NCBI GenBank assembly: GCA_947461125.1 | Contig: CANHHX010000008.1 | Location: 1-53,872, forward strand | DNA: 53,872 bases | DNA from: Bacteroidota bacterium | Lineage (GTDB): Bacteria > Bacteroidota > Bacteroidia > Chitinophagales > Chitinophagaceae | Direction: 5' to 3' | Shown here: one piece after another, positions 22,165 to 24,699 of the stretch | How the letters are laid out: the number at the start of each line of letters is the position of its first letter | Position numbering within the stretch: position 1 is the first letter of the stretch | Position numbers and translations under genes: made by a program | The notes under the pieces: model-generated | What the model saw: the letters and a program-made list of their open reading frames with translations, nothing else | Database searches by the model: none | What the model was told of the DNA's origin: nothing

Positions 22165-22731
22165 ATGGCAACTACTTCAGACATCTCTCGTGGGGTGATC
22201 CTTAAACTAGACGGAAGCTTATATTCAGTTGTTGAATTTGGCGAGAACAAGACGGCTCGTGCAGCAGCAAAGGTTTGGGCTAAATTAAAAGGCGTAGACA
22301 ACAAAAGATCTATCGAAAAAACATGGAATAGTGGTGAAACCATTTACCCTGTGCGTGTAGAAAAAAGAGCTTTCCAGTTTTTATACAAAGACGAAAGCGG
22401 CTTCAATCTTATGAACAATGAGACTTTTGAGCAAATTGCATTAGGAGAAGAAATGATTGATGCACCTCAGTTTTTAAAAGATGGTTCAGAAGTTTTTGTA
22501 TTCATCAATACCGAAACCGACCAAGCGATTGGCGCAGAATTACCTGAAAAGATTGTTGTAAAAATCACGTATTGTGAGCCAGGATTAAGAGGCGATACCG
22601 CAACAAGAGCCCTTAAAGCAGCTACCGTAGAAACTGGTGCTACTGTCATGGTTCCTTTGTTTGTGGAAGAAGGGGAGTTGATCCGCGTAAATACCAAATC
22701 TGGTGACTACGTTGAAAGAGTAAAAGAATAA
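22165..22731 (+). CDS. efp: Translation elongation factor P with atypical tip loop
   Basis: 188 residues from ATG 22165, the standard EF-P length. EF-P relieves ribosome stalling at polyproline. The three beta-barrel domains are recognisable: KOW-like domain I (1-65), domain II (about 66-125) and the C-terminal OB domain with ITYCEPGLRGDTAT near 136-149. The unusual part is the domain I tip. Where most EF-P proteins read P-G-K-G, this one reads T-A-R-A (residues 30-33), so Arg32 replaces the usually modified Lys, without any length change. No EpmA, EpmB, EarP or YmfI gene is present in the window. An intrinsic terminator follows. Confidence 0.96.
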   Translation: MATTSDISRGVILKLDGSLYSVVEFGENKTARAAAKVWAKLKGVDNKRSIEKTWNSGETIYPVRVEKRAFQFLYKDESGFNLMNNETFEQIALGEEMIDAPQFLKDGSEVFVFINTETDQAIGAELPEKIVVKITYCEPGLRGDTATRALKAATVETGATVMVPLFVEEGELIRVNTKSGDYVERVKE

Positions 22732-22750: not shown

Positions 22751-22783
22751 AAAAAGGGGAAAATTCAATTTTCCCCTTTTTTT
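22751..22783 (+). terminator. Intrinsic terminator after efp
   Basis: AAAAGGGGAAAA (22752-22763) pairs with TTTTCCCCTTTT (22769-22780) over a five-base loop, followed by more T. It separates efp from accB. Confidence 0.92.
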
Positions 22784-22852: not shown

Positions 22853-23326
22853 ATGGACTTAAAGCAAATTCACGAATTAATCAAAATTGTCAATAAAAGT
22901 AACATTGGCGAAATCAGTATAGAAGATAAAGATGGTAAAGTAACCATTAAGCAAAAAGAAGAAGCGGCTGTGACCTATACCTCGGCCCCTAGCCAGGCGG
23001 TATATGCACCTGCTCCTGCTGCTGTCCCAGCTGCTGCACCTGCGGTTAACGCTCCTGCTCCTGCTGCTGCTCCAAAGGCGGATAATCTAATCACCATCAA
23101 GAGCCCAATGATTGGCACTTTTTACAGAAGAGCTGCTCCTGACAAACCGTTACTTGCCGACTTAGGCACCGATGTTGCTGCTGGAAAAGTGGTATGTATT
23201 ATTGAAGCCATGAAATTATTCAATGAAATTGAAAGTGAAATTTCAGGAACAATTGTAAAAGTGCTCGTTGAAGATGCAAGTCCTGTAGAATTTGACCAGC
23301 CATTATTTTTGGTTGAGCCTAATTAA
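22853..23326 (+). CDS. accB: Biotin carboxyl carrier protein of acetyl-CoA carboxylase
   Basis: 157 residues. An N-terminal helical segment (1-40) is followed by a Pro/Ala-rich flexible linker (about 45-75) and a biotinyl domain (79-157). The biotin-accepting Lys121 lies in EAMKLFNEIE, and the thumb segment SPMIGTFYR is present. It carries carboxybiotin from AccC to the carboxyltransferase in fatty acid synthesis. accC starts 35 bases downstream. Confidence 0.97.
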   Translation: MDLKQIHELIKIVNKSNIGEISIEDKDGKVTIKQKEEAAVTYTSAPSQAVYAPAPAAVPAAAPAVNAPAPAAAPKADNLITIKSPMIGTFYRRAAPDKPLLADLGTDVAAGKVVCIIEAMKLFNEIESEISGTIVKVLVEDASPVEFDQPLFLVEPN

Positions 23327-23361
23327 TAAGCAGGGTTTTCCTTAAACTTTAAATTGAAACG

Positions 23362-24699
23362 ATGTTCAATAAAATATTGATTGCCAATAGGGGAGAGATT
23401 GCGTTACGTATTATTCGTACGTGTAGAGAAATGGGGATTAAAACGGTTGCCGTTTATTCTACTGCCGATAAAGATAGCCTGCACGTAAAATTTGCCGACG
23501 AAGCAGTTTGTATTGGTAAGCCAAAAGGGGTGGATTCTTATTTAAACATTCCTCATATTATGGCCGCAGCAGAAATTACCAATGCAGATGCCATTCATCC
23601 TGGATATGGATTTTTAGCTGAGAATGCCAAGTTTGCACAAATTTGTGCCGACCATGGGATTAAGTTTATTGGCCCAACCCCCGAAATGATTAATAAAATG
23701 GGGGATAAGATTACTGCCAAGGATACTATGATTAAAGCGGGTGTTCCGGTAGTGCCAGGTGGTAAAGGTTTGTTAGAAAGTGTGGAAGAGGCAAAAACTT
23801 TGGCCAAAGAAATTGGATACCCGGTTATTTTAAAAGCAACTGCTGGTGGTGGTGGAAAAGGTATGCGTGTGGTTTGGAATGAAGAAGAAATTGAAAAAGC
23901 ATATTCATCTGCTAGACAAGAAGCTGCTGCTGCATTTAAAAATGACGGCGTGTACATGGAAAAATTTGTAGAAGAGCCAAGACACATCGAAATTCAGGTA
24001 GCTGGAGATCAATACGGAACGGTATGTCATATGAGTGAGCGTGACTGCTCCATTCAGCGTCGTCACCAAAAATTAGTGGAGGAATCTCCTTCGCCATTTA
24101 TGACACCTGAACTTCGTAAAAAAATGGGAGAGGCCGCTATTAAAGCAGCAGCTGCCATTAACTATGAAAGTGTTGGTACCATAGAGTTTTTAGTGGACAA
24201 GCACCGCAACTTCTATTTCATGGAAATGAATACCCGTATTCAGGTAGAGCATTGTGTAACAGAAGAAGTAATCAATTTTGATTTGATTAAAGAGCAAATT
24301 AAAATTGCAATGGGTGAAAAAATTTCTGGTAAAAACTACGAGCCGCAAATGCACGCCATTGAGTGTCGTATTAATGCCGAAGACCCCTACAACGATTTTA
24401 GACCTTCACCCGGAAAAATCACCGTACTGCATACACCAGGTGGACATGGCGTGCGCGTAGATAGCCATGTATATGCAGGTTATGTAATTCCGCCGTATTA
24501 CGATTCTATGATTGGTAAACTCATTACCGTTGCTCAAACGCGTGAGGAGGCTATTGATACCATGTATCGTGCCTTATCAGAATATGTAATTGAAGGGGTT
24601 AAAACAACCATACCTTTTCATTTGCAACTCATGCAAAATGAAGATTTTAGAAAAGGTAATTTTACCACTAAGTTTTTAGAAACCTTTACCATGAAATAA
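23362..24699 (+). CDS. accC: Biotin carboxylase subunit of acetyl-CoA carboxylase
   Basis: 445 residues, the expected length for a free-standing biotin carboxylase. It carboxylates biotin on AccB using ATP and bicarbonate. The N-terminal domain opens with [17 protein letters not shown]. The ATP-grasp glycine loop is [12 protein letters not shown], and catalytic residues lie in [15 protein letters not shown]. The accB-accC pairing argues for acetyl-CoA carboxylase rather than pyruvate or propionyl-CoA carboxylase. A strong hairpin terminator follows directly. Confidence 0.96.

Follow-up and report, generated by a model that had tools for sequence, protein, structure and literature searches.

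An EF-P with an arginine at its tip and a T-A-R-A loop is encoded at 22165..22731 (+ strand, stop within the coordinates) of the window, the whole 53,872-nucleotide stretch analysed here. We put at roughly 0.6 the probability that this is a true EF-P in which the tip was remodelled from KPGKGxAFVR to KTARAAAKVW in the ancestor of its bacterial family, f1, with Arg32 working unmodified. What is new, as read from sequence, is a T-A-R-A loop on a true EF-P that is constant through one family. We found no paper devoted to the f1 EF-P in the literature searched; the supplementary datasets of PMC6544042 and PMC11611912 may list f1 members.

The translated product (188 residues) contains all three EF-P Pfam domains and passes the cut-offs of NCBIfam TIGR00038 (192.4 bits against 185.8) and NF001810 (194.2 against 161). 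It stays below those of the EfpL/YeiP models NF003392 (95.3 bits against 216) and TIGR02178 (82.2 against 264), on which E. coli EfpL, run as a control, scored 305 and 340.7 bits, respectively. By these profile matches, the product is a true EF-P. The window genome (2.24 Mb, 112 contigs, 87% complete) holds one EF-P match, and the idea of a second copy was dropped on that single match in an incomplete genome. Downstream lie accB and accC (22853..24699, +; open reading frames named by recognition, without a profile search), which are conserved neighbours and provide context outside the mechanism. A terminator-like hairpin in the gap between efp and accB (22756..22775, +), is a consensus match only; on that basis, efp and accBC may be transcribed separately.

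The tip loop lies in the KOW-like domain I (codons 1–64, 22165..22356, +, with limits drawn from the alignment). Residues K29-T-A-R32-A-A-A35-K36-V-W38 align to K-P-G-K-G-Q-A-F-A-R of E. coli EF-P, placing T-A-R-A at the P-G-K-G position with zero insertions or deletions. Arg32 (codon 32, CGT; 22258..22260, +) aligns to the E. coli tip residue Lys34. An AlphaFold model (mean pLDDT 86.4, pTM 0.68), for which 30 homologues were supplied with the window protein, predicts strands at 18–28 and 36–43, which would leave a seven-residue beta3–beta4 loop, K-T-A-R-A-A-A (codons 29–35, 22249..22269, +), with Arg32 as its fourth residue. The best PDB matches of the model are themselves EF-Ps, with TM-scores by query of 0.87 (6s8z), 0.82 (3oyy_A) and 0.73 (1ueb_A). 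At the start of strand beta4, Lys36-Val37-Trp38 (22270..22278, +) occupies the place of Phe-x-Arg in Lys-type relatives, and with F-x-R exchanged for K-x-W the positive charge sits two residues nearer the tip. The initial annotation had placed an Arg32 EF-P here, with T-A-R-A for P-G-K-G and no insertion or deletion; coordinates, strand, frame and loop were all correct, and a misread loop was dismissed on the gap-free alignments.

We sampled 85 genomes of f1, the family of the window genome, for the loop pattern. An exact DNA pattern for KTARAAAKV is present in 80. Four of the five exceptions carry near-identical loops (K-I-W twice, K-F-W once and T-A-R-S once), and in the fifth, G522, no EF-P was found. 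Arginine in a T-A-R-A-type loop is therefore carried by 84/85 genomes, 44 of them read residue by residue and 40 by pattern match alone. The 44 EF-Ps read, from 44 distinct genomes, all have Arg32, encoded by CGT (25), CGC (8), AGA (6), CGG (4) or AGG (1). T30, A31, A34, A35, K36, W38, A39, K40 and L41 are likewise invariant (44/44), A33 is present in 43/44, and silent sites vary. A loop that is constant, with its arginine spelled in five codons, is more than chance would give. An alignment check of loop conservation, as suggested at the outset, thus came out in favour of the annotated loop.

Such constancy also bears on whether the loop has simply decayed, leaving an EF-P that no longer relieves proline stalling. 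Consistent with decay, f1 has lost Pro at −2 and Gly at −1, both essential in E. coli EF-P according to the available portions of PMC6544042. Against it, few parts of the protein are as constant as the loop, EF-P was found in 84/85 f1 genomes, and change at Arg32 is only silent, on which ground decay of the efp gene itself was also dropped. Moreover, a PPPNVTG pattern occurs in 24/24 f1 and 6/6 other genomes, and a scan of one such locus confirmed that it belongs to ValRS; its retention in f1 suggests that these bacteria still need proline stalling to be relieved. We regard decay as highly improbable.

Among relatives outside f1, P-G-K-G was found in 39 of the 40 loops read from the order and class, and Phe and Arg stand at the positions of K36 and W38 in all 40. 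The loci of order and class collected earlier all read KPGKG (16/16). A later collection from the order comprises 25 loci, one of which (L089) ends before the loop; the other 24 gave 23 KPGKG and one KPARG. The DNA pattern for KTARAAAKV matched none of 213 genomes from other families of the order. The KPARG locus (L075, genome G681, another family of the order) reads KPARGAA at an Arg tip, Pro standing at −2 and Phe at +4, and no EarP was found there. Arginine tips with Pro at −2 are called rare in PMC6544042, as far as its available text goes. In a sample of the phylum, the lysine-loop pattern KPGKGxAF is present in 199/395 genomes and in 0/14 from f1; the tips in 30 phylum genomes picked for lacking this pattern are Asn in 26 and Lys in four. 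The Asn-tip loops read TPGNLRA, NPGNWRA or TPGNKRG (L191, L194, L196–L213, L215–L220). One of these loci, L213 (genome G080), has two tandem EF-P genes at 1501–2058 and 2183–2740, where the loop reads TPGNLR in one copy and TPGKGG in the other, and genome G122 has more than one EF-P match.

For a wider view, a species-level genome collection was scanned for K-x-[GA]-R-[GA]-x-A-K-V-x-[AT]-K. Trp at +6 was omitted to avoid f1, so f1-like Trp loops outside the phylum would have escaped. The scan returned 85 stretches, 61 with an EF-P: 58 Deinococcota by title and one each from Neomarinimicrobiota (L132), Zixiibacteriota (L186) and a bacterium given only as such (L158). None of the 61 contains T-A-R-A. 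The EF-P of Thermus composti (L128) has Arg at its tip and Lys at +4. Because the pattern required Lys at +4, its matches are no support for a +4 Lys shared with Deinococcota. In EF-Ps picked independently of the pattern, Lys occupies +4 in f1 and in T. thermophilus (1ueb, Arg tip), Val or Ile in four EarP-linked EF-Ps, and Phe in G681; the +4 Lys common to f1 and Deinococcota is a lead only.

The divergence of the f1 protein is unevenly distributed. We calculated the mean f1-to-others distance divided by the mean distance among others, for 14 f1 and 24 other genomes, with 5–95% intervals from a column bootstrap. Domain I has a ratio of 2.54 (1.99–3.34), and 1.85 (1.50–2.48) with residues 26–42 removed. 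The ratio is 1.08 (0.96–1.25) for domain II, 1.11 (0.94–1.30) for domain III and 1.00 (0.92–1.08) for AccC. The excess f1 divergence is confined to domain I; domains II and III and AccC are without it. Fourteen residues are near-fixed in f1 (48 rows, four being second copies) and near-absent in 40 other sequences. Twelve of them lie in domain I, nine of these at 26–39, and the remaining two, R148 and N176, lie in domain III. R148 lies just past the G-D-T motif, which we take to contact the E-site codon. The domain that carries the tip seems to have been rebuilt in a concerted way.

With the loop columns removed, f1 forms one clade with support 99. A careful 38-row tree joins f1 to Lys-type Bacteroidota rows (99/95) and rejects a clade of f1 with Deinococcota (p-AU 0.030); on a quick 80-row tree such a clade stays acceptable (p-AU 0.458). 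On a tree of domain I, of 55 columns only, f1 is nested beside the Lys-type order rows L067 and L069 (87 and 92). The window protein is more similar to order relatives than to Deinococcota in domain I (36.7 vs 29.7% identity), domain II (48.3 vs 31.6%) and domain III (57.6 vs 50.9%). Downstream of efp, accB is present in 43/44 f1, 24/25 later order and 6/16 earlier loci. The order efp-accB-accC also occurs in many Deinococcota loci, which weakens it as proof of vertical descent; gene order is therefore not decisive, and we relied on the trees and the per-domain identities. On these, the Lys-to-Arg change most likely took place within the resident f1 efp gene, and the loop was most likely rebuilt once, in the ancestor of f1.

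The rebuilt loop departs from the types with described modification enzymes. The 5-aminopentanolated (YmfI-type) EF-P is marked by Lys at the tip and the EpmA-dependent type by the same Lys accompanied by Pro at −2; the window EF-P has Arg32 and Thr30. The EarP type is marked by Arg at the tip, which f1 shares, and by Gly at −1, where f1 has Ala31 (44/44). The EpmA profile TIGR00462 gave no match above its cut-off in 50 genomes (24 f1 and 26 non-f1, with the 87%-complete window genome among the 50), and exceeded it in 2/14 control genomes. Matches below the cut-off occurred in 50/50 genomes, mostly in frames of ~480–680 residues, and would be lysyl- and aspartyl-tRNA synthetases, judging from the expected frame length.

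EarP searches gave a similar outcome. Profile TIGR03837 matched in 0/147 f1 genomes and in 0/14 genomes of a separate search (11 of them f1, and partly the same genomes as in the other EarP searches), and PF10093 matched in 0/50 genomes, 24 of them f1. Both models recognised 4/4 control records (Aeromonas, Shewanella, Fusobacterium and Pseudoalteromonas) at 350–501 bits, and neither matched any of 14 named control genomes, including Thermus composti and Deinobacterium chartae. The report that the window holds no EarP gene can thus be extended to the window genome, at its 87% completeness, and to the 147 f1 genomes; an EarP gene elsewhere in the genome was dropped, two profiles being without matches in f1. 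A diverged EarP that both profiles miss could in principle rhamnosylate Arg32. The Arg tip is what such an enzyme would act on, and a G31A variant was modified by EarP in excess (PMC6544042, available portions). We consider this very unlikely, given two models that match nothing in f1 yet score 350–501 bits in four controls, Fusobacterium among them, and given that the f1 loop lacks the S-G-R-N motif seen in all four EarP-linked EF-Ps that were read. Separately, Shewanella baltica OS155 carries an earP-efp gene pair on its plasmid pSbal01 (L099:1777-3561).

A further candidate enzyme is a deoxyhypusine-synthase-like protein. Family PF01916 has matches in 48/53 genomes, including the window genome (L227:6835-7809, contig 12, 324 residues) and 24/24 f1 genomes tested, the point in favour of a role on the f1 EF-P. 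There is, however, no Lys at the f1 tip, and the window-genome copy is over no NCBIfam cut-off. Matches of 129–150 bits, the class found in 24/24 f1 genomes, also occur outside the family, in 8/16 Asn-tip genomes and in 8/13 other genomes that lack such a tip. Since this class does not track the tip arginine, we read it as belonging to polyamine metabolism, and a role for it on f1 EF-P seems most improbable. By eye, the neighbours of the window-genome copy are unlike polyamine genes. A second PF01916 class, at 232–344 bits (L222 and L223 among the matches), was seen in the other 8 of the 16 Asn-tip genomes and in 0/37 other genomes tested; it is possibly tied to the Asn tip, across genomes that are not independent.

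The initial annotation was right that the arginine is either bare or carries another modification. In the simplest reading, Arg32 is bare and beta4 has exchanged F-x-R for K-x-W: the unmodified arginine would contact the CCA end, with K36 and W38 compensating within the rebuilt loop. Work on C. glutamicum has reportedly found its EF-P unmodified. The tip of EF-P contacts the CCA end of P-site tRNA-Pro (PMC6544042, available portions). In the available part of PMC11611912, Arg33 of E. coli EfpL, in the loop SPTARGAAT, is unmodified by mass spectrometry, a docking model stacks the bare EfpL arginine between the two C bases, and a loop-stiffness strategy is cited. Counting against a bare Arg32 are published unmodified Arg tips, which performed poorly in the settings examined. 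The K34R variant of E. coli EF-P retains 20% activity, and the EF-Ps of P. putida and S. oneidensis, when unmodified, either fail or inhibit in E. coli (PMC6544042); that of N. meningitidis, also unmodified, has only partial function even with its own ribosomes (PMC4739656, in the text available). Gly at −1 is important in both modified types, and G33A, like P32S/G, abolishes the activity of E. coli EF-P (PMC6544042). For P. putida EF-P G31A, the same source gives an in vitro rhamnosylation rate below 1%, which speaks for a bare Arg32 beside Ala31, and full modification in vivo with excess EarP; Ala at −1 therefore does not exclude modification.

Arg32 might instead be modified (with a sugar, methyl, hydroxyl or other group) by an f1-specific enzyme, not yet known and encoded away from efp, for which domain I would be the substrate surface. 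Among EF-Ps that have been characterised, most depend on a modified tip, and the general shape of domain I is said to be what EarP recognises (both PMC6544042, available portions). The remodelling in f1 spans all of domain I, at a ratio of 1.85 even minus residues 26–42, and would equally fit the docking surface of a new enzyme. On the other side, EarP and EpmA were not found in the f1 profile searches, the f1 loop apex is like the unmodified EfpL apex, and no f1-specific gene was seen beside efp: a modification gene directly downstream was dropped as a candidate, accB-accC lying there as in Lys-type relatives. Modification by an f1-specific enzyme is the main rival reading, a serious one but less likely than not. 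We are doubtful of its fuller form, in which f1 switched from Lys to Arg and activates EF-P by an undescribed arginine modification, with the enzyme docking on the rebuilt domain I. The evidence leans towards an unmodified Arg32 without settling it.

Either outcome would be informative. The EF-P tip must reach peptidyl-tRNA, and f1 has switched both the loop and the surrounding domain completely, with Lys-type sister families at hand for comparison. If Arg32 is bare, an EF-P of canonical length works with an unmodified arginine, and the fixed substitutions show which residues deserve testing. Otherwise, there is a new arginine modification and an enzyme to be discovered. Over half of all bacteria have no gene for any known EF-P modification enzyme (PMC6544042, available portions), which raises the question of how they manage.

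Arginine at the tip had initially been linked to EarP-dependent EF-P, which is true, but it is not confined to that type: it occurs in Thermus composti and EfpL; the available text of PMC4739656, in discussing EF-P(Arg32), mentions that EarP is missing from B. burgdorferi, T. thermophilus and D. radiodurans; and in that of PMC6544042 Arg makes up 14.75% of the tips in 1166 EF-Ps, compared with 100 EarP proteins. The proposal of a third pattern is likewise only partly right. The loop is indeed neither of the Lys type (Arg32, Thr30) nor of the EarP type (T-A-R-A, not S-G-R-N), and the earP and epmA searches it called for agree (earP in 0/147 f1 genomes, epmA above cut-off in 0/24), but EarP-free Arg-type EF-Ps and EfpL are precedents.

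Compared system by system, EarP-dependent EF-P (K/R-S-G-R-N) resembles f1 in the Arg tip of a seven-residue loop and in having no Pro at −2; it differs in S-G-R-N, Val/Ile at +4 and the presence of EarP, against T-A-R-A, Lys at +4 and no EarP found in f1. E. coli EfpL (YeiP) shares with f1 the apex T-A-R-[G/A]-A-A, the Arg tip and Ala at −1. EfpL loops read from genomes are S-P-T-A-R-G-A-A-T in E. coli and A-P-S-A-R-G-A-S-T in Proteus, nine residues with a conserved Pro three before the Arg, whereas the f1 loop has seven and is without that Pro. Under the definition in the available text of PMC11611912, EfpL has an Arg-tip loop of more than seven residues, and the window loop has the Arg and exactly seven. 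Domain I of the window protein is 17% identical to that of EfpL, which is a paralogue, whereas the window EF-P is the sole EF-P found. The Arg-type EF-P of Deinococcota (Thermus; K-[ILM]-G-R-G-G-A-K-V-V) shares the Arg tip, the missing Pro at −2 and Lys at +4, and the EarP models are without a match in Thermus composti and Deinobacterium chartae, as in f1; its loop has Gly on both sides of Arg and Val at +6, where f1 has Ala flanks and Trp. The Lys-type EF-P of related families (KPGKGxAFVR) belongs to the same protein family, is nearest on the trees, shares the downstream accB (24/25 later order loci) and, like f1, comes without EpmA above cut-off (0/26 non-f1 genomes). It differs from f1 in having P-G-K-G in place of T-A-R-A with K36 and W38, and the f1 protein is far more diverged from it in domain I than in the rest.
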